From a virus: a DNA stretch of 42,352 nucleotides. Location: positions 1-42,352 of IMG/VR virus record IMGVR_UViG_3300032073_000061, one strand, 5' to 3'. Both the position numbers and the translations under genes were made by a program. The notes under the pieces were generated by a model, which was given only the letters and a program-made list of their open reading frames with translations, was not told where the DNA came from and did not search any database. Below, piece by piece: positions 6,292 through 30,500 of this stretch; the stretch's first letter is position 1; each line of letters opens with the position of its first letter.

Positions 6292-6322
6292 AAAAAAAAA
6301 GGGGGAAGTAACAACTTCCCCC
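6292..6322 (-). terminator. Strong intrinsic terminator after gp23
   Basis: On the coding strand GGGGGAAGT-TGTT-ACTTCCCCC forms a perfect 9-bp stem with a 4-nt loop, followed by a run of nine T. It starts about 30 nt after the gp23 stop codon. Its GC-rich stem stands out in this AT-rich DNA. It should end the capsid transcript and protect its 3' end, separating gp23 from the neck genes. Confidence 0.93.
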
Positions 6323-6352
6323 CTATTTTATTAGGTTAAATTAAACCGAGAT

Positions 6353-7969
6353 TTAGACTAAGTCCAAATGTGCGATATTAATCTTTCCATAGAACTCAGG
6401 ACGAACCATCTTCTTCGCGTAACGAGTCATCACACCTTTTCTTGGTGTAAAGTTCGTTGGGTCATAGACCAACGGAGTCATGATGAGAGGTACATAAGGA
6501 GCATAAACAGCACCAGTTTCAAGGAACTGAGAACCACGATATCCCATAAGAATTACATTCTCTGTCATATAAGGGTTCTTGTAAACTGTGAAACGATTGT
6601 TTAATGCACCGATTTTCTGTACACCCATTGCGAATTGACTTTGGTCACCATCAGTATCAGCTGCATATCCAGGAATACTTTCCAAGATAGTTGCAACAGA
6701 TGGGGATGTTACCAAGAAGTTCGCTCCGCCACGAAGTGTCTTACGATGTATCTCGTTAGATATCTTCTGAATTTTGATACCTAATGTCTGATACCAAGCA
6801 TTCTTAGTATACGCATTAGATGCACCAGAAATTTCAGAGAATCTGTCTTCGCCATTTCCTAATCCATCATCGTCAAAACCGACTTTAGCTGACCAATTAG
6901 CAGATGAAACTGCGTTCTCAATTAACATATCAAGGATTTCCAAATCAATTTCCATTGAAATGTATTCACTTAACATAGAAGTCAATTCTGCTTCTGCGTC
7001 AATTGAGTGGTAAGCGTTAAGGTCTTGAGCGAATTCAGGAGTCCATGATGCTTTCAATTTACGAGTCTTTGCGACAATTGTCTCAGACCTTAATTGAACA
7101 TCAATCTCAGGAATGTCAAGAGAGACTGCTGAACCAGAAGATGAAGTATCTTCAAAATCACCTCTTGTTACATCAGTTGGTTGCTTCTGATATTTAACAA
7201 CAATACCTGCTATTTCATCAGAACCAGACACGATAAATTTAACATTACCGGATGTGTCTATAGAAGTGAACTCTGGAAAATAACTAATAATGTTAGAACC
7301 AGAAATTGAAAAACCACGAACACCTTCAGCATCCACATTAGTGAAAGCATTAGAACCAGTAGTTACCGTAACAGAACGAAGATGACCAGTATTAATAGAT
7401 GCTGACATATCTGCGTTAAAGTTAAGTTCACTAAAGTTCACCGATGCTGATGTAGGAGCTGCGATAGAATCAGATGCTGCTTCGTTTATAGAATAAGCAA
7501 ATCTACCACTTCCGTATAATCCACCAGATGGGTTACCAGAGGTATTTGTTTGACCGTGAAGAGTACCAGACCCGTCACGAGTGACGCCACTAACGACATC
7601 AAATCCAGGTTGAGATGTTCCATACTTGAAATCAAGAAAGAAAACAAGTCCAGATGGAAGATTCATAGGTTGAACAGAAACGAAGTCTTTCGCTGCGATT
7701 TCTGCAAACACTCTACGAACCAAAGGAAGTGCTACACCACTCCACTCTTCCGAGTTGGATGCTGTACCAGTTCTGCTGGACTCTTGTACTAATTGCTTAG
7801 CCTGGTTTTCAAGAAGAATTGACATAGAACTACGGTCGTAATCCTCAAGTCCTTCTAAAAGACCAGTTTTTTCCCACTTTTCAGACAATTTTTGTGCATC
7901 TGCCTGGAGCGACTTATGCTGAGAACCTGCGTCCCCAACTAAACCATTTAAAGTATCAAGATTACTCAT
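6353..7969 (-). CDS. 23: Major capsid protein gp23 (538 aa)
   Basis: T4-type major capsid protein, the main subunit of the head shell. Hallmarks are SILLENQAKQLVQESSRTGT near residue 50, SEEWSGVALPLVRRVFAEI near 73, the VQPMNLPSGLVFFLDFKYG stretch near 100, and a C-terminal TRYAKKMVRPEFYGKI. The length is close to T4 gp23 (521). T4 gp23 is cut by gp21 after Glu65; here E63 (end of QLVQE) sits in the matching place and is the likely cleavage site. The ATG is preceded by GGAG with 8-nt spacing, 22 nt after the gp22 stop, so scaffold and shell are cotranscribed. A strong terminator follows the gene. Confidence 0.96.
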   Translation of the reverse strand: MSNLDTLNGLVGDAGSQHKSLQADAQKLSEKWEKTGLLEGLEDYDRSSMSILLENQAKQLVQESSRTGTASNSEEWSGVALPLVRRVFAEIAAKDFVSVQPMNLPSGLVFFLDFKYGTSQPGFDVVSGVTRDGSGTLHGQTNTSGNPSGGLYGSGRFAYSINEAASDSIAAPTSASVNFSELNFNADMSASINTGHLRSVTVTTGSNAFTNVDAEGVRGFSISGSNIISYFPEFTSIDTSGNVKFIVSGSDEIAGIVVKYQKQPTDVTRGDFEDTSSSGSAVSLDIPEIDVQLRSETIVAKTRKLKASWTPEFAQDLNAYHSIDAEAELTSMLSEYISMEIDLEILDMLIENAVSSANWSAKVGFDDDGLGNGEDRFSEISGASNAYTKNAWYQTLGIKIQKISNEIHRKTLRGGANFLVTSPSVATILESIPGYAADTDGDQSQFAMGVQKIGALNNRFTVYKNPYMTENVILMGYRGSQFLETGAVYAPYVPLIMTPLVYDPTNFTPRKGVMTRYAKKMVRPEFYGKINIAHLDLV

Positions 7970-7991: not shown

Positions 7992-9104
7992 TTATTTAAT
8001 TAACCCTGCTAATTGTTTGAATCTATCTGCAACATCATTTGATTCCTCAACAATTTCTTGTTTAGGTTTCGTAGATGCAACAGCCTTACTTGCAACACTT
8101 TCATTCACAGAACGCTTACGAACATTTCGTACTCCGTCAAATGACTCAGCCAAGGTTGTGAATACCAACTTCACTTCACGAAGATTAGCTGCTCTATCAA
8201 ATGTCTCAACAACTTTCAATTTCTGATTGTCATTAAGGTTATGATTTCTGAACAACTTATTTGTGTAAAGAAGTTTAGCATTTAGAAGATTAACTTCGTT
8301 GATTTTGTCACGAAGATGTACGATTACTTCACGATGCTCTTCAAGAGATTTTTTAACCTCTTCAAGTTCATTGTTTTCTTCAACTTCTTCTTTGTCATCA
8401 TCAGCTTCTTCGTCAAGGCCTTCAATTTCACGAATGATAGAATCAAGGTCAAGTTCAACATGGTCTTTCAAGTCATCAACTTTCTTATCCTCACCTTCAG
8501 CACCAGGTGCTTTAGATGATTTTTCAGTTTCAGCTTTCTCGTAGTCATCACCACTTGCTTGGTCAACTTTGTTGTCACCTTTACCAAGACCAGAAGAATC
8601 AGATTGTTCATCCATTTCTTCTTTATCTTCATCAGCGTCTTCAGATTCTTCCATTTCTCTTTCCCCTTCGTCTTCATCATCACCAGCTTCTTCTTCAAGT
8701 TCTCTGATAATAGCTTCAAGGTCAAGGTCATCGTCTTCATCTTCGCCTTCTTCTTCCCTCATATCACCTTCCATTTCATCATGGTCTTCGCCTTCTTCCT
8801 CGGCTCCTTCCATTCTTTCGTCTTCGTCATCACCCATTTCTTCATCAGCGTCATGACCTGGTTCATGCTCATCATCAGCAGCTTCTGCATCCATTGCTGG
8901 TGCTTCTTCTGCATCTTCTTCTGCATCTTCCTTGTCATCCATTTCCATGTCATCTAACTCATCATCTTCTTCACGAAGTTTCTGAGATAACATAGACTGA
9001 AGAGTTGGTGTAAAAGCTTCAGTTAATGCTAACTTAGCATTTTCTAAAGCAGTCTCACGAACGGTTTTAGCGTCTGCGATAGCGTCTTTTAAGAGACTAT
9101 CCAT
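7992..9104 (-). CDS. 22: Prohead core scaffolding protein gp22 with long acidic insert (370 aa)
   Basis: Scaffold around which the capsid assembles and which gp21 later digests. The N-terminal helix (~1-45) and the C-terminal region with LLNAKLLYTNKLFRNHNLND (near residue 273) and LKVVETFDRAANLREV are the gp22 signature. Residues ~46-250 are an extremely acidic Asp/Glu tract, making the protein longer than T4 gp22 (about 269). Within the tract the motif DLEAIIRELEEE recurs as DLDSIIREIEGL, both with possible gp21 sites of the I/L-x-E type. The gene lies directly upstream of gp23 and is preceded by a 148-nt leader with a promoter-like box and hairpin. GGAG lies 7 nt before the ATG. Confidence 0.93.
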   Translation of the reverse strand: MDSLLKDAIADAKTVRETALENAKLALTEAFTPTLQSMLSQKLREEDDELDDMEMDDKEDAEEDAEEAPAMDAEAADDEHEPGHDADEEMGDDEDERMEGAEEEGEDHDEMEGDMREEEGEDEDDDLDLEAIIRELEEEAGDDEDEGEREMEESEDADEDKEEMDEQSDSSGLGKGDNKVDQASGDDYEKAETEKSSKAPGAEGEDKKVDDLKDHVELDLDSIIREIEGLDEEADDDKEEVEENNELEEVKKSLEEHREVIVHLRDKINEVNLLNAKLLYTNKLFRNHNLNDNQKLKVVETFDRAANLREVKLVFTTLAESFDGVRNVRKRSVNESVASKAVASTKPKQEIVEESNDVADRFKQLAGLIK

Positions 9105-9174
9105 ATTATTTCTCCATATATTATTATTGGAATTTATACTTATTTAGAAGTATAATAGAATTACTTAAGGTCTC

Positions 9175-9206
9175 ACACTATATGATGTACGAATGTACCA
9201 TAGTGT
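9175..9206 (-). promoter_or_regulatory. Hairpin in the gp22-gp23 leader
   Basis: On the coding strand ACACTAT pairs with ATAGTGT (7 bp) around an inner GTAC-ATTC-GTAC stem-loop. It starts about 12 nt downstream of the ATATTTATA box and ends about 70 nt before the gp22 ATG. If the box is the -10 element, the transcript would begin almost at the foot of this hairpin. A 5'-terminal hairpin could stabilise the mRNA of the most highly needed head proteins. No T run follows on the coding strand, so it is not a terminator. Confidence 0.5.
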
Positions 9207-9217
9207 ATTCATATGTA

Positions 9218-9225
9218 TATAAATA
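9218..9225 (-). promoter_or_regulatory. TATTTATA box, candidate promoter of gp22-gp23
   Basis: The coding strand reads GTGTATATTTATATAC, an exact copy of the box seen ahead of other units. It sits between the bS21 terminator and the gp22 leader hairpin, about 114 nt before the gp22 ATG. There is no recognisable -35, as expected for a T4-type late promoter, but the core is the reverse complement of the T4 late TATAAATA. Confidence 0.5.
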
Positions 9226-9236
9226 TACACAAAGTT

Positions 9237-9254
9237 AAAAAACCTTACAGGTTT
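9237..9254 (-). terminator. Intrinsic terminator overlapping the bS21 stop codon
   Basis: The coding strand reads AAACCT-GTA-AGGTTTTTT: a 6-bp stem with a 3-nt loop running into a T tract. The first stem bases belong to the TAA stop of the bS21 gene. The stem is short and AT-rich, so termination may be partial. It separates the upstream small-gene cluster from the gp22-gp23 unit. Confidence 0.65.
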
Positions 9255-9486
9255 ATTTCATTTCTTGTAATCTTTTTCGTTCTCTTACCTTTGCCATCTT
9301 TTTTTCTAACCTTTTTCTAACAGATGGTTTGGTATAAAATCTTCTCTCTGATAATTCTATAAGTTTTTTAGAGTCTTTTATCATTTTTTTAAATCTTTTA
9401 AGTGCTAATTCAATATCTCCATTTAACACTTTGACTCCTTGACCACCTAAAGCCCAATCAGATTTCTTTTGTTTCTTTTTTCTCAT
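9253..9486 (-). CDS. rpsU-like: Ribosomal protein bS21 homologue (77 aa)
   Basis: Bacterial bS21 binds the 30S platform near the anti-Shine-Dalgarno region and affects initiation. This product has the family layout: a short N-terminus ending in GVKVLNGDIELALKRFKK (near 17-34), then SERRFYTKPSVRKRLEKK (46-63) corresponding to the cellular RREFYEKPS-type segment, then a very basic tail (KVRERKRLQEMK). The length matches cellular bS21 (about 70). The basic lead MRKKKQKKSDW is longer than usual. The gene sits among virion genes, with AAAGG 7 nt before its ATG and a terminator on its stop. Viral bS21 genes are known from tailed phages; the protein could replace host S21 and bias ribosomes toward phage mRNA. 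That role is inference. Confidence 0.85.
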   Translation of the reverse strand: MRKKKQKKSDWALGGQGVKVLNGDIELALKRFKKMIKDSKKLIELSERRFYTKPSVRKRLEKKMAKVRERKRLQEMK

Positions 9487-9517
9487 TTTACAACCTTTGT
9501 TTTATAATTTAAATTTA

Positions 9518-9976
9518 CTAATTAGGTACATCTCCATTTGTATCTTCATCATCATGTGGATTATCTTTTACATATCCATCTACATTTGTACCATCATAAT
9601 CGTCTGTAGCTTCCTTTATTTCGTAGTATCTACCAAGTACTTGACCTATGTCTTCGTATGCACCTTCAAGTCTTTGCTGTAACTTAGACATTTCTTTTGC
9701 AGACTCAATAAAAGTACCTTTTGCTTCTTTAAGAGACCCTATGTTTCTTTTTACGGTAACTTCATCAAACCAATCTTCTGTTTCATTTAGTGTAAATACC
9801 TCTGCTAAACCACATACACGATTTACCGTTTCACTTATTTCTTTTAAATCTTTACCAGATTTGTAAATACTTTGTCCAAGTGAACCAAAGTTGTTAACCA
9901 TCTCAATGAACTCGCTACGATGTTCTTTGTATTGTTGAGATTTCTTTTCGTTTAATAATTCTTTTAATTTAATCAT
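9518..9976 (-). CDS. Helical virion-associated candidate with L-x-E leader (152 aa)
   Basis: I do not recognise this protein. It begins MIKLKELLNEKK, an amphipathic leader ending in LNE, very like the start of the kinase at 21324-22088. In T4, short N-terminal leaders target internal proteins to the prohead and are cut by gp21 after L/I-x-E. The rest is mostly helical (residues 15-120) with an acidic Asp-rich tail. It follows a TATTTATA box 17 nt upstream of its start and has AAGGAG with 9-nt spacing. The position between gp21 and gp22 supports a head-internal or core role, which is inference. Confidence 0.6.
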   Translation of the reverse strand: MIKLKELLNEKKSQQYKEHRSEFIEMVNNFGSLGQSIYKSGKDLKEISETVNRVCGLAEVFTLNETEDWFDEVTVKRNIGSLKEAKGTFIESAKEMSKLQQRLEGAYEDIGQVLGRYYEIKEATDDYDGTNVDGYVKDNPHDDEDTNGDVPN

Positions 9977-9992: not shown

Positions 9993-10000
9993 TATAAATA
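9993..10000 (-). promoter_or_regulatory. TATTTATA box upstream of the 152-aa gene
   Basis: The coding strand reads GATATTTATATC in the 25-nt gap between two genes; the ribosome-binding site AAGGAG follows within 10 nt. An mRNA starting just after the box would have almost no leader before the Shine-Dalgarno, so this copy may serve only weakly or mark an mRNA-processing site instead. Confidence 0.4.
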
Positions 10001-12274: not shown

Positions 12275-12868
12275 TTATCTCTCCGTAAGAATTTCTGTAA
12301 TGATTCTGTTGATATTTGAGATAGGGTCGTTCTGATTATTGTCTACACTTTCATTCATAGGTCTTAAAAATGCACCATGTGTAGATGGATTTGATACGAA
12401 GTCAAATGCTATTAATTCAAAATCGTCTTGAACTTCGTTTACATCACCTTTTTCTTTGACACTACCAAGACCACGAGAACTAATTCCTAACTTTATTCCT
12501 GATTGAAATAGTTCTTTTAATATATTTCCAGATGGTGTTGATAAAACTTCCACTTCTCCAACTAAATCGTCTCCATCCCAACCCATATTTAACACATTAT
12601 GGGAAACATTTTGTAGATTTACTACTGAAGAATCTGGATGGTCAAGTTCTCCTAATGCTCTACTCTCTTGAATGAAACTATCCATATACTTTTTTGACTC
12701 TCTCATCAAAATTTCTTTAGGATAAATACGACCATTCTGATTTTTTGCCTCGGCTCTTTGTAAAACACCCTTTACAATCAGTTTACCATTGTTGTTCGCC
12801 ATTGATTCGTTAATCATTTCTGGGGAAACTTGGAATGGTATGTAATCAACTAATAAATTTTTACTCAT
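12275..12868 (-). CDS. 21: Prohead core protease gp21 (197 aa)
   Basis: Serine protease of the T4 gp21 (S77) type, which digests the scaffold and trims head proteins during maturation. Visible features are GKLIVKGVLQRAEAKNQNGR, the His motif GELDHPDSS, the Ser motif LGISSRGLGS, and the Asp region ELIAFDFVSNPS, in the expected order. The length matches T4 gp21 (about 212). I choose the ATG at 12866-12868 because GGAG lies 6 nt upstream and the preceding gene's stop overlaps there; an ATG four codons earlier (12880) lacks such a site. Expected cleavage sites are L/I-x-E, which occur in gp22, gp23 and several small proteins of this window. Confidence 0.92.
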   Translation of the reverse strand: MSKNLLVDYIPFQVSPEMINESMANNNGKLIVKGVLQRAEAKNQNGRIYPKEILMRESKKYMDSFIQESRALGELDHPDSSVVNLQNVSHNVLNMGWDGDDLVGEVEVLSTPSGNILKELFQSGIKLGISSRGLGSVKEKGDVNEVQDDFELIAFDFVSNPSTHGAFLRPMNESVDNNQNDPISNINRIITEILTER

Positions 12869-12869
12869 T

Positions 12870-13094
12870 TTATGCTCCAAACTTTTTGTATATTTTAGGA
12901 TTCCTTTTTGCTTTGGTATATCCGTACACTTTTTCTGCGTGTTTTACTTTTTTTTTGTCATCTTTCTTTTTATTCTTAGAAAATGCATAAGGTGTTTTAG
13001 GTGGCCCTTCTCCACCATCAAGATTAGCAGTTACATTTGCTTCTTTCAAATTTCGTTTAACAAGTTCTTTTACTATATATCTTAATTTATCCAT
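12870..13094 (-). CDS. Small basic protein at the gp67/gp68 position (74 aa)
   Basis: The product starts MDKLRYIVKELVKRNLKEAN, a helix of the same type as those on the 64- and 176-residue proteins, followed by a Gly/Pro stretch (GGEGPPKTP) and a Lys-rich tail. In T4 two small prohead core proteins (gp67, gp68) lie between portal and protease; this gene occupies that interval, though it is basic while T4 gp67 is acidic. It overlaps the previous gene by one base (TAATG) and abuts gp21. A core or internal protein is the best guess, based on position. Confidence 0.5.
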   Translation of the reverse strand: MDKLRYIVKELVKRNLKEANVTANLDGGEGPPKTPYAFSKNKKKDDKKKVKHAEKVYGYTKAKRNPKIYKKFGA

Positions 13095-14002: not shown

Positions 14003-15883
14003 TTACTTCAGTTTCATGTCTTTATCTGACAAAATAACTTTATCTTCGTTCATTAAATCAAATTGTTCGTCACTTTTTTTAGTTATTTTTTCTTTTTCAG
14101 TTTTCTCAATTAGTATTTTTTTATCATTCGGTAATGAATCTATTATATTATTCACTATATTATTTTTATTTTCTTTTGCTAATGGTGAGTTTCCTTTGAA
14201 ATTGTGTTTAATTGATGTATCAATATCAAAAGTTTTATCTAATGCTTTCTTTCCAATAGGGTCTCTTCCTCTTGGATGTCCATCCGTAGAGTATTTCGTT
14301 CCTTCTTTTGGTCTTCCACCACCTGGCCATCCACCTTCTGGCATTTCATTTTCACCTTTTCGGTGCATTGATGCTAAATCATGTGGTGTTCCAAAAGATT
14401 CTTTAGTAACGGCGGGGTCATTACCCTCTGTTTCTATTTGCTCTTTTCTAAAGTTCTGTTTAATATCATCTATAACTCTTGCTCTTTCGTCATCTACTTG
14501 GTCTTTAGTCATATTAAATATGTTTTTGTATATCCAATCTTCGGAAATTAACTTAGTTCCTTTCATGGATTCTGCTAAGTTTATCTTTTCACTCCAAAGT
14601 GCTACTTTTTCTTGTTCATAAACAATACTTGGATTAGTTAAGTTTAGTTCAAACCCTACCAAATCTTCTTTATCAAATCCTTGTGTATACAAATGGACAA
14701 TTGCAATCTTAGTTAATTCAGATAAAACAATTCTTTGTATTCTTTCTATGGTTCTTGCAAAACGAACATCTTCTTGTGCTAATGTTGCCTTACCTTCAAT
14801 ACCTTCATCATACCCTAAAAATGCTTTTGGGATTCTAAGAGCTGCCATCATCTTGTTTCTTAAGTATTCAACATCATCAATTGCATTATATTCCATACCA
14901 CTAAGTGATTCTATTTGTGTACCACTATCACCACCACGAACTGGTAAATAAAAGTCTTCCATCATATTCATCATATTAAATTTTAAATTATACTCTCCCG
15001 AATTTTGGTCAATGTATGGAGTTTTCTTCATTTTATTTATCAGAGTTTGCATATAGTTATCAACCTCTGCTGGTGGAATGTTACCAATATCAATCTTGAA
15101 TATTCTCTTTTCTGGTGCTCTCATAATTCTATGAATTAACATAGCATCTTCCATAAGAGTTAATTGTTTCCAAATCTTTCTTGCTGCTTCAATCATTGAT
15201 TTACCATAAGGTAAAAAGTTAGAATCAGTTAACATTCTAAAATGTGCTACTTCATAGTTCTTTAAAGTTTGGTCATTTTTATTATAAGAAGTTGCTTTGT
15301 TACCATCATCTACATTGAAAGTAACCTCATGTGGTAAATCTGGATTCACACCTTCTTCTCTTGAAACTGAATATGCTGACATTGGTTCTACACCTACAAC
15401 ACCATATTTTTCTGCTATATCTAATTTTAAAAAGAAGTCACCATATTTGTTCATACTACGAATCCATGGCCAGAGATTAAACTCTATATTAATAACATCA
15501 TAAAAAAGATTATGTAAAACTTCACGAACTTGTTCATTATCAGAACGAATATCAAGAATGTCTCCATTCTCATTTTTCATTGTTGATTCATCTGAATAGA
15601 TATCAAGAGCAGATGCTAAAATGGGGTCTTGTTCCATTGCTTCATAATCAGCAAACAACTCAAGTCTTCCTGCATTATAAACTGGGTTTTGTCTATAACC
15701 ACCAACATTGTTTGGCATATGCATGCCAGCATATCTTGCGGCAAGGTAGTTAGTTGATAAATTACCACTTGATTGGATTCTGTCTGTGTCTGCTATTTTT
15801 AAACGATTACCACCAACATTTCTAACAATTATGTTGGATGAAAATAGTCTACGAAGACGACCAAATAGTGTTGTGTCTGCCAT
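14003..15883 (-). CDS. 20: Portal protein gp20 (626 aa)
   Basis: Forms the dodecameric DNA entry ring and the site of head initiation. Recognisable T4 portal segments include DPILASALDIYSDESTMKNE (near 85), NKYGDFFLKLD (near 146), PYGKSMIEAARKIWKQLTLM (near 230) with the following EDAMLIHRIMRAPEKRIFKI, and GYDEGIEGKATLAQEDVRFA near 365. T4 gp20 is about 524 residues; here the C-terminus carries an extra ~100 hydrophilic residues after ~495, with a Gly/Pro segment (GGWPGGGRPKEG) and a Lys/Asp-rich end. AGAGGA lies ahead of the ATG, and a TATTTATA box lies ~35 nt upstream. The next gene upstream is gp17, so gp18 and gp19 are missing from their T4 place. Confidence 0.95.
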   Translation of the reverse strand: MADTTLFGRLRRLFSSNIIVRNVGGNRLKIADTDRIQSSGNLSTNYLAARYAGMHMPNNVGGYRQNPVYNAGRLELFADYEAMEQDPILASALDIYSDESTMKNENGDILDIRSDNEQVREVLHNLFYDVINIEFNLWPWIRSMNKYGDFFLKLDIAEKYGVVGVEPMSAYSVSREEGVNPDLPHEVTFNVDDGNKATSYNKNDQTLKNYEVAHFRMLTDSNFLPYGKSMIEAARKIWKQLTLMEDAMLIHRIMRAPEKRIFKIDIGNIPPAEVDNYMQTLINKMKKTPYIDQNSGEYNLKFNMMNMMEDFYLPVRGGDSGTQIESLSGMEYNAIDDVEYLRNKMMAALRIPKAFLGYDEGIEGKATLAQEDVRFARTIERIQRIVLSELTKIAIVHLYTQGFDKEDLVGFELNLTNPSIVYEQEKVALWSEKINLAESMKGTKLISEDWIYKNIFNMTKDQVDDERARVIDDIKQNFRKEQIETEGNDPAVTKESFGTPHDLASMHRKGENEMPEGGWPGGGRPKEGTKYSTDGHPRGRDPIGKKALDKTFDIDTSIKHNFKGNSPLAKENKNNIVNNIIDSLPNDKKILIEKTEKEKITKKSDEQFDLMNEDKVILSDKDMKLK

Positions 15884-15951: not shown

Positions 15952-17547
15952 TTAATTCTTATCCAGTAACCATTCAATTGACTCATCATCTTTACCGACT
16001 TTCATTTGCCAAGGATTTCTGTCTCCAAATGTATTGTTTACACTATACCCTTGACCAAAACTTGAGTTACTTCCAATACCACCAAGTGCTAATTTGGTCA
16101 TTTCCATTCCCTCTTGTCGTAATCTTAGTGCTGTATCTCTTACCCACATTCCAATACAAAATGCCATTGTAAGGTCATCGTTGTATCCGTTTGCTGCTTC
16201 TGCTCTTGAACCATTCCAAATAAAAACAAATAGTTCGTCTAATAATCTTTGTGAATGTATTACTGGTGCTTTCTCTCTAAAGTAACTTTCCAGTTTTGAT
16301 ATAATCATTGGTCTTGTTTTTGCAGTTGTTGAAAAACCTGGTACCAGTTTATCTTTTCCTTTTAAGTCAAACCCTTGAGATAACTGCACTTGTGGGTCTA
16401 CAATCGTTAAATCTTTTGATGAATAATATAAATTCTTATACATTCTATCCACTGCTGGTTGTATCGCTGCCCATCCAACATTAGCATTCTCAATAATTAA
16501 TAATGCATCATTGTATTCTGTTGCTACATTTACCAACATATTACCATAGTCTTTAGTACCAACCATTCCTCTATACTCTGCTACTTGTTCCATAGACTCT
16601 ACATCAATTACATGAAATGCGGAAAAATCTTTTCCATCTCCTCTTGCTACATCAGCACAAATCATGTAATCTCTTGAATAATCTGGATATCCCCAAACCC
16701 AAAAGTTTCCATCAAATCCTTTTTTCTCTATTGGTTCTTTTACATGAGTTTGTTCATACCATTGAATTATTGTACCATCAACAACCGTATTACCAGAAGT
16801 AATAAAGTCACAATCACATTCTTGTGCTGCGTGTTTAGGGCCCAGTAATTGGTCTTGTTCATCTCTCCAACTTTGTTCTCTTTCTGGATGTAAATCCCAG
16901 TGTAATTTTATTGGATTGAACTCGTTTGTTCCTTCTATAGCACCAACCCAAGTCTTATGATAAAAGTTACCAACACCATTGGGTGTAGAAAGAACTATTG
17001 CACTTCCACCAGTTGATAGTGTAGATTGTGCTGATGCCCATATTGAATCAACATCCTTAATAAATGCTGCTTCATCAAGTATCAACAATGACAATGCTTC
17101 TGAACGACCTGCATCTCCACTACTACTTACTGCTTTTATCTGAGAACCATTGGAGAACTTTAACGATAATCTATTGTCTTCAAGACACTTTCCTTTTAAC
17201 CAACTTGGTAAGTTATCATGCATGACTCTTACTTTAGTAACAAGATTTTTTGCTACATCTTGTTTAGTTGCGATAACAAGAATGTTTCTGTCTTCTTGAA
17301 ATAACATCATCCACAATGAATAACCAGCAGTTAGAGTTGATATTCCCATCTGTCTTGCTTTTAGGATAACATTATATCTATTATCTTTTAATTCTCGTAT
17401 TGATTGTTTTTGAAACTCATATAAATGAAATGGTACTTTTCCCCTTACTGGATGTTGTATCTGACAATACTTCATCAAAAAATGTATAGGGTCAACTGCA
17501 CATTTCTTATATTCTTTTTGAATTAATAGTTTTAATTTATTGTCCAT
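15952..17547 (-). CDS. 17: Terminase large subunit gp17 (531 aa)
   Basis: DNA-packaging motor ATPase plus headful nuclease. The ATPase half shows a Walker A variant KARQMGIST (~63-71), Walker B LLILDEAAF, and the coupling motif STPNG. The nuclease half shows the RNase-H-like acidic positions ICADVARGDGKDFSAFHVID, LLIENANVGW, and NDDLTMAF. It is slightly shorter than T4 gp17 (610). I use the ATG at 17545-17547; a GTG one codon earlier is also in frame. The GGAAGAG stretch upstream of the start lies within the end of the preceding zinc-ribbon gene, which overlaps by 11 nt, so the two are coupled. Confidence 0.95.
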   Translation of the reverse strand: MDNKLKLLIQKEYKKCAVDPIHFLMKYCQIQHPVRGKVPFHLYEFQKQSIRELKDNRYNVILKARQMGISTLTAGYSLWMMLFQEDRNILVIATKQDVAKNLVTKVRVMHDNLPSWLKGKCLEDNRLSLKFSNGSQIKAVSSSGDAGRSEALSLLILDEAAFIKDVDSIWASAQSTLSTGGSAIVLSTPNGVGNFYHKTWVGAIEGTNEFNPIKLHWDLHPEREQSWRDEQDQLLGPKHAAQECDCDFITSGNTVVDGTIIQWYEQTHVKEPIEKKGFDGNFWVWGYPDYSRDYMICADVARGDGKDFSAFHVIDVESMEQVAEYRGMVGTKDYGNMLVNVATEYNDALLIIENANVGWAAIQPAVDRMYKNLYYSSKDLTIVDPQVQLSQGFDLKGKDKLVPGFSTTAKTRPMIISKLESYFREKAPVIHSQRLLDELFVFIWNGSRAEAANGYNDDLTMAFCIGMWVRDTALRLRQEGMEMTKLALGGIGSNSSFGQGYSVNNTFGDRNPWQMKVGKDDESIEWLLDKN

Positions 17548-18076
17548 CACTCAACTCTTCCCAAGTAATTTCATCACTTAGGTATTTATCAATATTAACA
17601 ATCTCTTTAGTTAGAGATTCAACAATTTCGGTTGGGTCTTGCATTCCCCATCTTTCTAAGTCACCACTCTCTTGTGCAATATCTTGGTCTTTTGAAACCA
17701 TATCAATATAACCTTTTAATTCTGCCTTTAAGTCTTTCACATAAGAACGCCTATAAAGTTCATCTTGTTCTTTTTCATATGCCTCCCATGTACCATCTAT
17801 TTTCATTTTGGTTTCTTTTTTTGACCAACACTCTAAACACATTTTGTATCTTGACCAGTATCTGTCATCTGCTTTCTTTTTCATTATACCTTTACATTCT
17901 GGGCAAAACCAAGGCATTCTCGCCTCTTGCATTATTTTTGTTAATGGTGACTCTATGGTCTTACCATCTCTACTTTCTACTTTCTTATCGCTTTCGTAAC
18001 CTACCATTACTCTCTTCTCAGGAGTTTCACCCCTAAGTATTGACTGTAAAGCCTTTTCTTCATGTTTTGTTGACAT
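17537..18076 (-). CDS. Zinc-ribbon protein at the small-terminase position (179 aa)
   Basis: The middle of the protein holds two Cys pairs, CPEC at 58-61 and CLEC at 80-83, separated by 18 residues with aromatic and Lys residues, a probable zinc ribbon for nucleic acid or protein contact. The flanks are helical and charged, with a coiled-coil-like C-terminal half (EIVESLTKEIVNIDKYLSDE). The gene overlaps the gp17 start, the place of gp16 in T4, and the length is close to T4 gp16 (164). T4 gp16 has no such cysteines in my memory, so the small-terminase assignment is positional. It could instead be a packaging accessory or regulator. Confidence 0.55.
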   Translation of the reverse strand: MSTKHEEKALQSILRGETPEKRVMVGYESDKKVESRDGKTIESPLTKIMQEARMPWFCPECKGIMKKKADDRYWSRYKMCLECWSKKETKMKIDGTWEAYEKEQDELYRRSYVKDLKAELKGYIDMVSKDQDIAQESGDLERWGMQDPTEIVESLTKEIVNIDKYLSDEITWEELSDGQ

Positions 18077-22134: not shown

Positions 22135-22917
22135 TTACACCCCATAAATTCCACGATTAGCATTGAAGTTCTGTCGTATTTCATCATGACTAAGAGCTTC
22201 TGCATAAATTTGTATTTGACCCATATATCCATTAAAGTCATTGGATACAGCAGTTGATGATGCTACGGTAGTTTGAGTTCCACCTATTATAAATTGAGAA
22301 GATGTAGCAGTAGCAGAATAACCGGTTGAAGAAGAATTATATGTACTTGAAAGGATTCCATTTTTGTAGAACTTTGTATTTGAACTTCTATCTGCTACCA
22401 CTGCTATATTTATCCATTGACCTCCGTTCCAAGTTGTTCCAGTCGTATCGGTATCATCAGAATGTAAACTTGATGCACCCATTTTTAAAAACATTTTATT
22501 GTTTGATGTATCATACCATAGATTCCAACCATCAACAGTTAGTCCCTTTCCTGCAGTAAATGGCCCTTGTTGTATCAATCCAAAATCATACCCAGTACCA
22601 CCTTGATTTGAGTACCACATTTGTATTGTAAAATCAGTTGAAGTACCAAAACTAAAATCACTATCTAATGCTCTCTTTGCAAAGTCATCAGTTCCATCAA
22701 AACTCCACCACCCATTTGTACGAGTTGTTGCTCCATTTACTACGGTAACATCATTTCCCCAACCACTCAAATCTACCATAGATGAATCTGATTCACCAGT
22801 CCAACAAGCATACTTAAACGGGTCTACATAAAATTTCATTTGAGTACTTCTATATACACCAGCACCACCACCTATGAATCTTCCTGAAGTACCCGTTCTT
22901 CCAATATTAATAGCCAT
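22135..22917 (-). CDS. LamG/concanavalin-like adhesion protein 1 (260 aa)
   Basis: Residues ~45-255 form a LamG-like beta-sandwich, a carbohydrate- or protein-binding jelly roll: WSFDGTDDFAKRALDSDFSF, FTIQMWYSNQ, WINIAVVADRSSNTKFYKNG and the family-typical end YMGQIQIYAEALSHDEIRQN followed by FNANRGIYGV. The N-terminus (GRTGTSGRFIGGGAGVYRS) is a Gly-rich linker that may attach it to a fibre. It is the last of three tandem paralogues, joined to the previous one by a TAATG stop/start overlap. The likely role is a receptor-binding tip or head decoration; which of these is not shown by sequence. Confidence 0.75.
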   Translation of the reverse strand: MAINIGRTGTSGRFIGGGAGVYRSTQMKFYVDPFKYACWTGESDSSMVDLSGWGNDVTVVNGATTRTNGWWSFDGTDDFAKRALDSDFSFGTSTDFTIQMWYSNQGGTGYDFGLIQQGPFTAGKGLTVDGWNLWYDTSNNKMFLKMGASSLHSDDTDTTGTTWNGGQWINIAVVADRSSNTKFYKNGILSSTYNSSSTGYSATATSSQFIIGGTQTTVASSTAVSNDFNGYMGQIQIYAEALSHDEIRQNFNANRGIYGV

Positions 22918-23630
22918 TATATCCCAAACGCTCCTCTTTCAGCGTTAAAGTTATATAAAAGTTCGTCTTCTGTTAACGCGGCATTGTATATTCTAAATAC
23001 TGCTATACCACCTTTATATCTTTCAGTTCCACTACTTCCTGCTAACACTCTTGTTGCTCCCGCTCTTATAGTACCACCTTCAGAAAAATCACCACTATCC
23101 ATTGTAGCAGTTCCTTGTGATACCATATTTACAAAAAACTCCACTTCATTAGCAGAATCATCTAACCTTATTGCTAAGTGATACCAATTATTTATTGATA
23201 ATGTACTTGAAGTGATTACTGCTACATCTTCACCAGAACCATCTGTTCTAAATCCAGCTCTGATTGTATTGGTCGTATCTCCCCTTTCAAATCCTGCTGA
23301 ATCATCAAAATTACCTAACATTATAATACTACCCTTTCCAGTCAAATCTGTTGGGTATACCCAAGTTTCCCAAGTCCAATTAGCATTAGGCAATCCTAAC
23401 GATACATTAGGAAAATCTATTTGACTTGTTCCACTATCACCAAACTGCCAATAATAGTTGTTCCATGCTACATCTTGAGCAGTACCATCTTCGTTGTTTC
23501 CACTTATGTCTTGAATAGTAGTAGAACCATTTGCATGAGAGTTTATATCTAATGCAGTATAATGTCTATAAAGATACTCTCGTATGACATGCTCACCACC
23601 TAAAAATATTCCACCTACATTTACTGGCAT
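22917..23630 (-). CDS. LamG/concanavalin-like adhesion protein 2 (237 aa)
   Basis: Paralogue of both neighbours. It begins MPVNVGGIFLGGEHVIREYL and carries a LamG-like sandwich: WTWETWVYPTDLTGKGSIIM, NNWYHLAIRLDDSANEVEFF and the end GGIAVFRIYNAALTEDELLY with NFNAERGAFGI. The C-terminal strand-helix motif (IYxxALSxDExxxNFNAxRG) is shared with protein 1. There is no signal peptide. TAATG overlaps couple it on both sides. The sequence has diverged strongly between the copies outside the fold signature, as expected for receptor-binding modules under selection. Confidence 0.75.
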   Translation of the reverse strand: MPVNVGGIFLGGEHVIREYLYRHYTALDINSHANGSTTIQDISGNNEDGTAQDVAWNNYYWQFGDSGTSQIDFPNVSLGLPNANWTWETWVYPTDLTGKGSIIMLGNFDDSAGFERGDTTNTIRAGFRTDGSGEDVAVITSSTLSINNWYHLAIRLDDSANEVEFFVNMVSQGTATMDSGDFSEGGTIRAGATRVLAGSSGTERYKGGIAVFRIYNAALTEDELLYNFNAERGAFGI

Positions 23631-24301
23631 TATGATGTACCTTCTATAGTTACATCAAACCTTCCTGCATCACACATAAAATTATGCCGTACTTCAGTAG
23701 CAGATAAAGCTCTATCATAAATTCTTACACATCCTATCTTTCCATTCCATTCAGCATCATTAGTATAACCAGCTCCGATTGTTAATTCATTAGAATTCCA
23801 TTGACCATCTGTACTGCTATTTATGGATTCTCCGTTTATGTAAAGTACTGAAGTAGAATTATTATCTACAATTACTTGTTGGTGCCAATTTAGATACCCA
23901 TTACTCCAATTTGTTTTAGCCCTGCTATTATAATTATTATCATAACCTTGATACTCTGTTAACCACCACCAACTTGAAGTGTGTTCGTGGTCTCTACCGT
24001 CCATAATATAATCAGTAGTTGTATCATCTTTCTGTCCCCAAAACTCAAGAGTATAAGAAGTATGTGTTCCCATAGAAGTATTTCTAAAATAATCATCAGT
24101 ACCATCTAAGTCAAAATAATATCCGTAAGACCAAGCAGGAGAACTATTTGCAGACATCTCATTTTGTTCTCCACTTAAGTCTGTCCAATCACTACCATTA
24201 GAAAGGTCTGGTTCTTTATAGCGACTATCATACCATCCAATCAACCCATCACGAAGTGGTTGTCCTGGACCAATAAATCTACCTGAACCATTTACTGGCA
24301 T
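23630..24301 (-). CDS. LamG/concanavalin-like adhesion protein 3 (223 aa)
   Basis: First-transcribed of the three tandem LamG paralogues. Visible landmarks: a start GSGRFIGPGQPLRDGLIGWY, DLDGTDDYFRNTSMGTHTSY (near 70), TLEFWGQKDD, and the closing GKIGCVRIYDRALSATEVRH with NFMCDAGRFDV. The ending departs from the NFNAxRG form of the other two and adds ~10 residues (TIEGTS end). Rich in Trp and Tyr, as in sugar-binding sandwiches. It overlaps the 85-residue gene upstream and protein 2 downstream by one base each. Confidence 0.75.
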   Translation of the reverse strand: MPVNGSGRFIGPGQPLRDGLIGWYDSRYKEPDLSNGSDWTDLSGEQNEMSANSSPAWSYGYYFDLDGTDDYFRNTSMGTHTSYTLEFWGQKDDTTTDYIMDGRDHEHTSSWWWLTEYQGYDNNYNSRAKTNWSNGYLNWHQQVIVDNNSTSVLYINGESINSSTDGQWNSNELTIGAGYTNDAEWNGKIGCVRIYDRALSATEVRHNFMCDAGRFDVTIEGTS

Positions 24302-24558
24302 TACTCGTCCTCATCACTCATCCAAGCACTTCCAGTAAGTATGTTTAGTATTTCACTATGAGCATACTCTTGTGACTTGGATGATAAAGAAGAAACTGAA
24401 GATGGTTGACTCCCCTCGTACTTTACAAAAGTCTGACTACCACTAAGATTAAGACTTAGAGTACTTACACTTGTTTCCAGTACTTGTGAAAAATCAATAC
24501 TTCCAGTTTCACTTGTGTCAAATATAACCCATTTTCTATTTGAAAATCTATCACTCAT
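24301..24558 (-). CDS. Small fibre-associated protein (85 aa)
   Basis: Ser-rich protein starting MSDRFSNRKWVIFDTSETGS and containing DFSQVLETSVSTLSLNLSGS and AHSEILNILTGSAW. Small proteins with a similar opening (NRKxVIFDxSE...DFSQVLETS) occur, as I recall, beside fibre genes in marine T4-like phages, with no known function. It starts 8 nt inside the end of the 3001-residue fibre gene and ends overlapping LamG protein 3, so it is made with them. It might act as a fibre chaperone or connector; nothing in the sequence decides. Confidence 0.55.
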   Translation of the reverse strand: MSDRFSNRKWVIFDTSETGSIDFSQVLETSVSTLSLNLSGSQTFVKYEGSQPSSVSSLSSKSQEYAHSEILNILTGSAWMSDEDE

Positions 24559-27500
24559 CTTTTATCTCTTCTAATTTAAATTTATACTTTTTGTTATTCA
24601 AACGGTTTATTAAGAATAAATCATCTTTACCCTCTTGAATTGTCCAATCTCCTTTCGTACCATCTACTTCATTTCCAGTATCTTTGTCAATGTTAGATAA
24701 CTGCATATCAGTAGTGTATATGTTGTTCCATCTTAAAGTTGAAGAACCTAAATCATATGTTGCACTTGCTGCTGGGTCTATATCACCTGCTGATGTTAGT
24801 CCTTCAATCTGCCCACTTGTATTTATTGTTAAGGCATTTGTTCCTGCACTTGGATTAGCATTTCTTGGGTCTGTTTCTGCATCAACATTTATTTTGAATT
24901 TATCAGAATCGCTATTGTCTATACCCATTGTGTATTGTCTTGTACCACTTATATCAAAGGTAAGACCAGCATCACCAGTTTCGTATTGTGATACTATTAT
25001 CTGTGGATGTGTGTTAGCACCATGTGCTCTTATATGTAAAGATGCTGATGCTTTTGTTTTGTGCCATCTTGCTAAATTAGTAGCGTTAGTAGCAGTTGCC
25101 TCTGGTAAATCATCAAACTCAGTTGCTGAACTACCACTATAAATGTTTAACGGACCTGATAAATGTGATGGTGCAGATGCACCACGACCAAATAAGAAGT
25201 ACATATTTTCCTGCCCATAACTACCACTCATATTATTGCTAAAAGAAAACGCTGACTGCCTCATAGGGTCTATATCATCTGCAAAAGTTGATGAGTGAGA
25301 GTTTTGCCACCCATATGTCCACATTGTAAAACCCATACTTGCGTGACCATATGTTGGAGCAGTATGACCCGATTTAATATTTATATCAGTTTTAACACGA
25401 TTATGATAGGCATCCATTGAAATTGCACCAGTTGAAGTTGAATTAAAATGTTCACCAGTTTTAAAATCAATATCATTACCAAAAAATCTACTTTGATTTG
25501 AAAATGAATTTCCCATTCCCAGAGCAAATGAACCACTATATTGTCTATTTGGTTTACTAGCCGCCGACCAACCACCTGCACCCGCACCATATGCAATAGT
25601 TCCTGCAAGAACTCCTTGTCTAATTCTATATGAATCTGCAAATGGGGCTGCTCCAAACGCTGCAATTATCACATCAGCATTATTTGTTGTAGCTGTAAAT
25701 GACTCTTGTTCTGCCATTATAGTTGCTATGTAACCAAATGTTTGGTCTGGTGCCCAAGGTTGGGTATTACCCGTAGCCCTTGAAGTAGGAAATCTAAATG
25801 GTGTACCTGCTACTTTTTGGTTAAATGAGTCTAATGATGCATAAGACTCTGTAACATGAAATTTTGCTTGTGGTGCATCTGTCCCGACTCCCATTGCCGT
25901 ATGAGATGGAAATTTTATACCACCTTCACTAAATAAAGAACCTCTTAACTCTATAGAACCAGATACTTTTAAATCATTTTTTATATCAGCGGTAGTTGTC
26001 TCAAAGTCACCACCTTTTAATTCAAACCCATCTTCATCTACTTTCATAAATGATTTTTGGTCACTATATATCAACATACCATCTTGATTCATCATTGCAA
26101 ATGGTTTAATTCTTAATCCACTTGATGCTAATGTTGATTTTAATTTACCTATACCAACATAACCAAGGATTAATGGTTGGTCTGTTTTTACTTCGGGTGC
26201 AAAAATTTGTATTTCAAATTTTAATCGTATCTCATCATATCCACTTTTAGCAGTTGAGAATTTTAGCCCCAATTCATTTCTTCCGATTTGTTTTAAAACA
26301 TCAAACTTTTGTTGTGCTATTAAATTATCTGGTGTTCCACTTGTTGAACCAAGAACTGATACTACTAATTGTACAGATGATTTTGCTGCTACACCATATG
26401 CTGTTTTTTGCCATTCTTCACTAATAGCAACAACTCCACCAACAAAATGGTTACCTAACCCTTGACTTGAGAAGTCATGATAGAATGATGCTTCAGCAGT
26501 ATCATCTCCACTACCACCAATCGTACCATCTAAATCCCCATTAAATCCACCGAATACTGCTTCTGGGATTGATGCACCAGAGTTAGAACCATCTCCATAT
26601 AGCCAATGTTGTACTTGCCCCGATGTATTTTCAACATCAGATGCTTTTACCCATGTACTTGCATCATCAATTAAATCATCAGCTCCACCTTGTGAAAAAT
26701 CAAAGTCATTGAATCCAACTGAACCAGTTAAGTCTGTTACTACTGGAAGTCCTTTTGAACCAGAACCTACAGATACAATATCTGTTGCACCATCTGTTAC
26801 TCTAAGTCCACTAAATGTTGAACCAAACCCATCTGTTGCACTTGAGTTAATAATTGTCTGGTCTTTAGTTATTGCAGTTTCACTTAGTGTCCAACCTGCT
26901 ATTTCATTTCTTGTTTCAGATATTTCAAATACTCTGGTACTACCATCATCTGAAAATCCTCGTATACCATATTTTTGTGTTGATGCTCCAGCAGCTCCAT
27001 CAGTTAAACCTATTGATATCCTTGGACTTCCTTTTGTTCCACCAACTTCTAATTTATTTCCAAAGAAACCATAGTTTGCTGCTACTGACTCTGCATCCAA
27101 TCCACCTTGTAGTTTCATGTTAGATGCAGTTACATTACCTGCTGCGTCAACAAGAAAGTTAGAAGATGAGAACTCACCACTTGCAGAAATTATTACATTA
27201 GGAACATCCTCTGTTCCACCTACCGCTAACTTATCACCAAAGAAACCAAATGTTGCCGTAATACCTTCTGCTGCTAACCCACCACTTAAGTCAATATTAG
27301 ATGCAGTAACATTACCATCACCAGTGATAATAAACCCACTTGCTGATATAAACATATTAGTTCTTGTTGCATTATCACCACTTGGAGAACCACTAATAAA
27401 GAAACTTACATCATCTGGAGCCACATTAGTTGATGCTCCATCTTTGACACTTTGTAATACATCAACTGATATTGAGTCTGTATCAAATCCTGCGAATGTT

Positions 27501-30500
27501 GCGTTACCAAATAATCCAACTACTCCATCATCTCCTATACTTAGTCCAGATGCAGTTGTTGATACCGTTCTTGCAGTATTTAAATCTGATTGAGTAGTTG
27601 AATCAACCATTACAAATCTACCATTAGCGGTAGAACTAAATGAAGAACCTGGTCCTCCAGTATTACCTACTGCTCCTTGTCCACCACTTCCACCAGTTGT
27701 ACCTTCACCACCAGTTTGACCAACTTGACCAGTCTGACCAACTCCACCAGTTTGACCAACTTGACCAGTTTGACCGACTCCACCACTTCCACCAGTTGTA
27801 CCTTCACCACCAGTACCACCAGTTTGACCAACACCACCAGTTTGACCAACTTGACCAGTTTGACCAACTTGACCAGTTTGACCGACTCCACCACTTCCAC
27901 CAGTTGTACCTACACCACCAGTTCCACCAGTCTGACCAACTCCACCAGTTGTACCTACACCACCAGTTTGACCAGTCTGACCAACTCCACCAGTTGTACC
28001 TACACCACCAGTTCCACCAGTCTGACCAACTCCACCAGTTGTTCCAACACCACCAGTACCACCAGTTTGACCAACTTGACCAGTAACACCAACTCCACCA
28101 GTACCACCAGTTTGACCAACTTGACCAGTAACACCAACTCCACCAGTTACACCAACTCCACCAGTTTGACCTACACCACCAGTTTGACCAACACCACCAG
28201 TACCACCAGTTTTACCGACACCACCAGTTTGACCAACTTGACCAGTAACACCGACACCACCAGTAACACCAACTCCACCAGTACCACCAGTCTTACCAAC
28301 ACCACCAGTATTTCCAACTCCACCAGTAACACCAACTCCACCAGTAACACCGACTCCACCAGTACCACCAGTTTTACCAACTCCACCAGTCTTACCGACT
28401 CCACCAGTAACACCGACACCACCAGTTACACCAACTCCACCAGTTTGACCGACTTGACCAGTTTGACCAACTCCACCAGTAACACCAACACCACCAGTAC
28501 CACCAGTTTTACCAACACCACCAGTATTACCAACTCCACCAGTAACACCAACTCCACCAGTAACACCAACTCCACCAGTACCACCAGTTTTACCGACTCC
28601 CCCAGTCTTACCGACTCCACCAGTTACACCAACTCCACCAGTTACACCAACTCCTCCAGTTTGACCGACTTGACCAGTTTGACCAACTCCACCAGTTACA
28701 CCGACACCACCAGTTACACCTACACCACCCGTACCACCAGTCTTACCTACTCCACCAGTAACACCTACACCACCAGTTACTCCGACTTGACCAGTTTGAC
28801 CAACACCACCAGTTACACCGACACCACCAGTTACACCAACTCCACCAGTACCACCAGTTTTGCCAACACCACCAGTATTTCCAACTCCACCAGTAACACC
28901 GACACCACCAGTTTGACCTTGTTGACCAGTAACACCGACTCCACCAGTAACACCGACACCACCAGTACCACCAGTTTTACCAACTCCACCAGTATTACCA
29001 ACTCCACCAGTTACACCAACTCCACCAGTAACACCGACACCACCAGTAACACCTACACCACCAGTACCACCAGTTTTACCGACTCCACCAGTATTACCAA
29101 CTCCACCAGTAGTTCCACTTGAACCACTTGTTCCACTCGTTCCACTTGTACCATCATCACCATCTGCACCACTCGCTCCTTCAGATTCACCAGTAGTTAC
29201 CGAGGTAACTGCTGATAAAGTTTGTGCTGTTATTTGGTCTGCTTCTATTTTTGCACCCGATAACTCCAATCCATCTCTTGTTAGTTTTAAAAAGTTATTT
29301 GGTGATGCGTATATTAAAATACCTTCTGGTATAACTTCAATTCTTGCTTCGTTTACACTTAATTTTGCATCATCATATTGTATTTCTGTGTAAGTGGTAT
29401 TTGCACCAAGTGTTTGGTCTCGTGTTAACGAACCACTAACAACAAACAATAACTTGGAAGTCTTCTTAGGAATTGCTGCGGTTACACTTACTTTCGTATC
29501 ACTTGTACCTGGTTTAAATGTCTTTCCTGGTAAACTACTAAAGTCACTATCCGCTGCTGGAGCAAACTTAACATAAGAAGACGATGGGCTTGCTAAAGAA
29601 CCAGTTAAGTAGAACAAGGAAATAAATTGGTCTGACATACTTCTTGTTGTTCCTGCACCTGCCAATGAGTGAGATAATTTACTCTGTATAGATGCGAATA
29701 CCGTTTTACCCTCATCTACATTAACGGATACTTCTTGATGAAGAGAATATGATAATGGTTTCATCTGAGCAAAATCAGATTCTTCTACAAAGATATCAAA
29801 TGTATTACTATTTTTGAAAGCACCATTTGTACTATAGTTACTTCTGTTAGTCAATGACGATGATACTGGAGTTCCTATCGGATTGTCTGCTGGTGAACCA
29901 TCACCAACCGAACCACTATGAAATACCCAATTATTTGGTATACTTCCTACATTCTGACCACCTCTTGGTTCTGCTCCAGCGTTATTTGTTGTTCCAGTTT
30001 CAAAACTTTGATTACTTACTTCATTGTCTCCACCACTCGTATCTGTAAAAGAACCAGATGCAATCATTACGGTTTCTCTACCAAACTCATTGTCAATAGT
30101 CAACCCTGGAAGTGCTGAACTTAATTCAACTTGACCATTAGATATACTGGAGGTTGTCATCGTCCAACCTGCTATTTCATTACCATCTTCTCCAAGTTTA
30201 AATACTTCAGTTACACCCGATGAACCAGAGTTACCAGTAAAACCTGCTATTCCAAATTTAGCATTACCATCAGCATCTTCATGGTCTAATAATTGACCTA
30301 TTTTGATTCTTGGAGCATCTCTTGCTCCACCAATTTCTAATTTTGTTCCAAAGAAACCAAAGTTAGATACAACGGTTTCTGATTCTAAACCACCTTGAAG
30401 TTTCATATTTGAAGCAGTTACATTTCCTACTGCATCAACAAAAAATCCAGATGAAGATATAATTCCACTACCACTAATTAATACATTTGGACTTCCCTTT

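Follow-up and report, generated by a model that had tools for sequence, protein, structure and literature searches.

A bS21 gene in the head-gene block of a T4-like myophage and a possible link to Shine-Dalgarno use

The DNA analysed here, referred to as the window, is an entire virus record of IMG/VR, 42,352 bases long, and it encodes a genuine phage bS21 protein, known in kind, in a co-directional head-block arrangement that is widespread. With moderate confidence we propose that this bS21 is made late from the head-gene block, that it would most likely be built into the host 30S subunit in place of the exchangeable host bS21, and that late in infection the ribosomes would initiate preferentially on phage structural mRNAs. 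The analysis shows the identity of the protein, the purifying selection acting on it, the position and strand of its gene among the head genes, motifs around it that resemble late promoters, a neighbour gene that goes with it, and the Shine-Dalgarno (SD) sequences that the phage genes carry; incorporation of this protein and a bias towards phage mRNA are inferred. That phages encode bS21, that the gene can lie near capsid genes, and that it is transcribed late have already been published. The incorporation of phage bS21 into ribosomes has been demonstrated for another phage, and any benefit to the phage is putative.

Results

The preliminary description had assigned the 77-residue product of positions 9253-9486 to bS21 and had proposed a profile search, which bears the assignment out. 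The gene is on the minus strand, a point absent from that description, and its translation (MRKKKQKKSDWALGGQGVKVLNGDIELALKRFKKMIKDSKKLIELSERRFYTKPSVRKRLEKKMAKVRERKRLQEMK) gives significant matches above the curated cut-offs to Pfam PF01165 Ribosomal_S21 (E=4.3e-10, 39.6 bits against 27) and NCBIfam TIGR00030 (E=3.2e-12, 46.1 bits against 28.95, residues 18-72), and its best sequence matches in the PDB are solved bS21 chains. Eight close relatives in IMG/VR, at 84-98% identity, keep the frame intact. Nucleotide comparison of the window with seven of these eight gives 28 pairs whose dN/dS has a median of 0.10, which means that the protein is maintained by purifying selection. An AlphaFold model (pLDDT 83) predicts the two-helix bS21 layout, with helices at residues 25-39, 41-47, and 56-76. 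The top five Foldseek matches of this model in the PDB are all mitochondrial small-subunit chains, bS21m going by the chain names from the PDB sequence search, and they are weak (E 0.7-3.5), as is expected where the fold consists of two helices only. The predicted two-helix fold, as in 30S structures, lends the assignment modest support.

The domain, the two-helix layout, and the KPS motif are common to the window protein and cellular bS21 (PF01165/TIGR00030). Retention under constraint of core bS21 residues, namely the KPS motif and the basic C-terminal helix, argues against a non-ribosomal role, in which a basic protein descended from bS21 would bind RNA or DNA in the virion or in head assembly. 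We regard such a role as very unlikely. It would fit the head-block place of the gene, on the strand of the capsid gene, in usable loci with bS21, and packaging into virions was raised as an option by Chen et al. (PMC9723584); however, the bS21 of the phage HTVC008M enters 70S ribosomes in E. coli although it is encoded outside the head block (PMC6375957). The N-terminal extension of the window protein has no counterpart in nearly all of the 59 cellular bS21 proteins examined, whereas variable features such as N-terminal extensions occur in many phage bS21s. Together with the basic tail, the extension could act in another RNA-binding role, which counts against the proposed reading. A phage bS21 that only maintained bS21 stoichiometry upon shut-off of host synthesis or loss of the host bS21, with mRNA choice unchanged, would not need such extensions. 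We consider this explanation improbable, although the late position of the gene is compatible with it and bS21 is small, exchangeable, and required for initiation, as stated in two earlier studies (PMC6375957, PMC9976891).

Almost all large ORFs of the window lie on the minus strand, in the order terminase, portal, protease, several small proteins, 152-aa protein, bS21, 370-aa acidic protein, capsid, and neck protein (Table 1). The bS21 gene shares the strand of the head genes and precedes the major capsid gene by 1.3 kb, and the earlier placement of bS21 among virion genes stands, with protease, scaffold-like, and capsid genes around it. A gp20 portal, a gp23-like capsid, a gp21-like protease, and a T4-type terminase mark the phage as a T4-like myophage. 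Its terminase, portal, and capsid proteins are closest to those of Microcystis phage Mel-JY01, the Flavobacterium phages 'immuto', and the huge phage LR756508; for portal and capsid, Rhodothermus phage RM378 is next-closest. No tRNA genes were found in the 42,352-base window, and an Rfam search gave no match. Elsewhere in the window, positions 24551-33556 form a single ORF of 3001 aa whose opposite strand holds long open frames of 481 and 432 aa. Three adjoining proteins (22135-22917, 22917-23630, and 23630-24301) match phrog_8510, which suggests tandem paralogues of a virion protein.

Table 1. Features of the window and layout of its bS21 protein
Feature	Position	Strand	Remarks
bS21 (rpsU-like) gene, 77 aa	9253..9486	-	ATG start at 9486; profile matches, dN/dS, structure model
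bS21 protein layout	residues 1-17; 18-72; V67		basic N-terminal extension; bS21 domain; place of F. johnsoniae Tyr54
AAAGG, weak SD-like sequence	9494..9498	-	7 nt before bS21 start; relatives keep AAAGGTTRT
152-aa helical neighbour protein	9518..9976	-	upstream of bS21, 31-nt gap
Terminase large subunit	15952..17550	-	T4-type
Portal protein (T4 gp20-like)	14003..15883	-	PF07230 E=1.6e-70
Head maturation protease (gp21-like)	12275..12880	-	phrog_207 E=1e-56
370-aa acidic protein, scaffold-like	7992..9104	-	putative function, from position
Major capsid protein (T4 gp23-like)	6353..7969	-	phrog_138 E=2e-74
Intergenic coding-strand TATTTATA (starts)	9218, 9993, 13990, 15919, 22112, 36172	-
Putative late promoter core TATTTATA	9993..10000	-	upstream of 152-aa gene and bS21
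Putative late promoter core TATTTATA	9218..9225	-	between bS21 and scaffold-like/capsid genes
148-nt leader between bS21 and scaffold-like gene	9105..9252	-	near-invariant in L001-L005, L007, L130
Terminator-like hairpin with T run	6299..6324	-	just past capsid gene

Six of the seven coding-strand copies of the 8-mer TATTTATA are intergenic in a window of which 2.3% is intergenic DNA (p=1e-9), against none of six copies on the other strand. By analogy with T4, where late promoters are placed ahead of head genes, this motif is likely the late promoter core of the phage, differing from the TATAAATA of T4. The canonical T4 sequence was itself rejected as a candidate, with none of its six coding-strand copies between genes, and a sigma-70 promoter scan gave no excess over shuffles. 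Because the 8-mer occurs before the 152-aa gene and again directly after bS21, bS21 would come second, after the 152-aa gene, in a short putative late unit; a putative capsid unit would follow and end in the terminator-like hairpin. The idea that bS21 is produced late together with head proteins is plausible and is backed by these two copies. Inside the leader downstream of bS21 there is an inverted repeat, CACTAT...ATAGTG.

Relatives were compared at 163 loci anchored on the capsid gene, each with eight or more genes and 4 kb or more upstream; 104 of these loci have bS21 and 59 do not. A homologue of the 370-aa scaffold-like protein is present in all 163. The bS21 gene is on the capsid strand in all 104 usable loci that have it, and 1.1-2.8 kb upstream of the capsid gene in the 57 such loci listed. 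The family of the 152-aa neighbour, with homologues at E 1e-24 to 1e-47, is found in 101 of the 104 loci with bS21 and in 11 of the 59 without, and all 11 belong to lineages nested among phages with bS21. That a helical neighbour accompanies bS21 is new here. Its predicted structure is helical, and the family has the conserved stretches WFDxVT and YEDxG; Pfam and PHROG searches with the protein gave no convincing family match, and Foldseek returned one uncharacterised phage protein (E=4e-5) and nothing convincing in the PDB. A neighbour gene, bS21_CN, is described for the phages of Chen et al. (2022) and is absent from their outgroups that lack bS21 (PMC9723584).

SD use was scored as GGAG, GAGG, or AGGA lying between -18 and -5 from an ORF's first ATG, relative to shuffles of the same bases, and loci with an SD excess over 0.2 were termed SD-rich. 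In the window, an SD motif stands ahead of 57% of genes, compared with 14-17% in shuffles. SD-rich loci comprise 91 of the 104 with bS21 and 4 of the 59 without, one of which (L319) has bS21 elsewhere on its contig. The number of loci with bS21 is inflated because part of the loci were obtained through a bS21 search. Loci obtained by capsid proteins only show the same pattern (54 SD-rich and 12 not SD-rich with bS21; 4 SD-rich and 54 not SD-rich without it), and among clusters at 70% capsid identity 21 of 26 with bS21 are SD-rich, against 0 of 11 without. This association among capsid-anchored relatives is new here; in the portions of the open-access literature available to us, we found nothing that connects the bS21 of phages with the SD use of their genes.

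On the capsid tree the bS21 state changes six times and the SD state 11 times, and the tree-corrected correlation is not significant, with only 5-6 independent contrasts. The link is largely one between clades, and it may reflect a host effect. A phage could adapt to an SD-using host, with bS21 and SD both tracking the host lineage and no causal connection between them. For the SD association, though not for the presence of bS21 as such, we put this explanation a little short of an even chance. It agrees with the clustering of the association on the capsid tree and with the cultured Flavobacterium phage immuto, which has neither head-block bS21 nor SD use; SD is also used by T4 and by Vibrio phage D506, for which the tables consulted show no bS21, and the flanks of Marinimicrobia bS21 genes are moderately SD-using (0.37 versus 0.17).

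A sharper form of our preferred reading, that of late bS21 in host 30S subunits, is that the phage protein, perhaps with its neighbour, alters the accessibility of the anti-SD and thereby favours SD-carrying late mRNAs in hosts with low SD use. The co-occurrence of bS21 and SD in loci and clusters speaks for it, as does the finding of McNutt et al. (2023) that F. johnsoniae ribosomes without bS21 start more quickly on the rpsU mRNA, which has a strong SD; loss of bS21 function is known to raise SD use in this species (PMC9976891). We nevertheless hold this form to be unlikely. The independent contrasts are few and not significant, G611, G613, L011, and L287 combine bS21 with hardly any SD or none, L181 uses SD with no bS21 found, and a plain host difference would account for much. 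Since the link is largely at clade level and may stem from the host, an SD switch driven by bS21 is a lead and not a result.

If late bS21 favours SD, head genes should be richer in SD. In 14 large bS21 genomes or contigs, SD motifs are commoner within 20 kb of the capsid gene than elsewhere (pooled OR 1.95, p=1.5e-8). The p-values of this test describe and do not confirm, because it was devised after the first profiles had been seen; nor are the genes of a single genome, or genomes related to each other, independent. The pooled OR is 2.10 with genes of at least 200 aa only, and the excess persists, with smaller effects, at limits of 12-30 kb and with stricter motifs. Four T4-like controls (T4, Vibrio phage D506, Synechococcus phage S-N03, and HTVC008M) give a pooled OR of 0.83, which is not significant, and SD is nearly absent throughout four large contigs without bS21. 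The excess is clear in Mel-JY01, G598 (0.38 near the capsid gene versus 0.15 elsewhere), G599 (0.58 versus 0.19), G602, and G619. It is missing from G611 and G613, and G605 and G606 show the opposite, without reaching significance; within the window, 28 near genes against 5 far ones make too small a sample (p=0.17). This enrichment of SD in the head genes of large bS21 contigs is new here and uneven between phages. Adaptation to the host alone leaves it unexplained in the roughly half of bS21 phages that show it, whereas the proposed change in anti-SD accessibility would account for it; against the latter are the opposite trend in two contigs and SD above background outside the head block too in several bS21 phages. 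Contig G608 has two bS21 genes, at 77419-77562 and 89747-89893, and in contig G619 bS21 (211157-211315) is about 105 kb from the capsid gene, although the rest of its clade has the two close together.

In F. johnsoniae, Tyr54 of bS21 stacks on the anti-SD. This position is the 13th after the P of KPS, equal to Y54 in Tamlana L046, and is occupied in the window protein by Val, a residue that would fit the SD use of the window phage. Other phage bS21s have Tyr at this position and are located in SD-rich phages. Tyr54 was thus ruled out as a predictor of SD avoidance, and the presence in SD-rich phages of a type expected to hide the anti-SD counts against the SD switch. Three loci with Tyr54-type bS21 (L283, L285, and L152, on contigs G598, G599, and G604) have SD motifs concentrated around the head genes. 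The best PDB match of the G598 protein, with a similar C-terminal helix, is the bS21 of entry 9i5v, which, going by its sequence, appears to come from a Bacteroidia species. If G598 and G599 infect Bacteroidia, their strong head-block SD bias would resist an explanation by host matching, and this bias in phages with a Bacteroidia-type Tyr54 is a point in favour of the SD switch.

A bS21 phylogeny with host S21, proposed in the preliminary description as a way to the host, did not deliver one: on 60 columns the phage sequences mostly cluster together, and no host is resolved. A search for the host by co-binning, with the capsid protein as query, found nothing at E 1e-60 either in 199 genomes from the phylum to which a Marinimicrobia bin belongs or in 395 from that of a Chitinophagales bin; it is uninformative for a lytic phage and had no positive control. 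One apparent host gene (L018, PBPT01000016.1, Marinimicrobia bin) was rejected as such: the bin has a second bS21, and the 335-kb contig carries Hsp20-like and phage-type neighbours; the contig resembles a phage and was probably mis-binned.

Discussion

The link between bS21 and SD use is a promising, unproven lead. In its broadest form, it would mean that in a large clade of aquatic T4-like phages late bS21 and a dedicated helical partner switch host ribosomes to SD-dependent initiation, with late structural genes marked by SD accordingly and bS21-less relatives mostly without SD. We think this unlikely; if true, a virus would be making its own specialised ribosome and an mRNA signal to match. 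Were bS21 and SD functionally linked, the purpose of the phage protein would become testable with SD and SD-less reporters on host ribosomes carrying either bS21, for which the pair of bS21 and the 152-aa neighbour and about 100 related phage loci provide defined material.

Phage bS21 was reported by Mizuno et al. (2019), together with its incorporation into E. coli ribosomes and its purifying selection (PMC6375957). According to the same source, E. coli ribosomes with the HTVC008M protein are nearly inactive (about 5%), so the benefit of phage bS21 is unproven. HTVC008M also confirms the statement in the preliminary description that viral bS21 is known, pelagiphages included. Kinship of the window phage with pelagiphages is not supported: HTVC008M is likewise a T4-like myophage with bS21, but its protein of 67 aa is encoded between CobS and Hsp20 genes outside the head block, whereas that of the window adjoins head genes. 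The window protein does not match it at E 0.01, and the terminase, portal, and capsid proteins point to the lineage of immuto, Mel-JY01, and LR756508.

Within that lineage, immuto has no bS21 in its annotated head block, and a protein search found none in its genome. Mel-JY01 (PP395634), with an annotated RpsU, and the uncultured LR756508 both have bS21 upstream of the capsid gene on the same strand, as in the window, and share its helical neighbour family; their bS21 proteins are 29% and 38% identical to the window protein, respectively, and LR756508, unlike the window, shows no SD use. The freshwater Bacteroidetes phages of Chen et al. (2022) are also myophages; their bS21 lies near the genes for terminase, portal, protease, and capsid, has a conserved gene beside it, and is expressed late (PMC9723584). 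That study found bS21 close to capsid genes in many phages, with late transcription, and in lake phages co-transcribed with structural genes. In contrast to the window and to all 104 usable loci with bS21, where the gene is on the capsid strand, the bS21 genes of Chen et al. run in the opposite direction to the head genes, and they encode an aromatic residue at position 54 where the window protein has Val.
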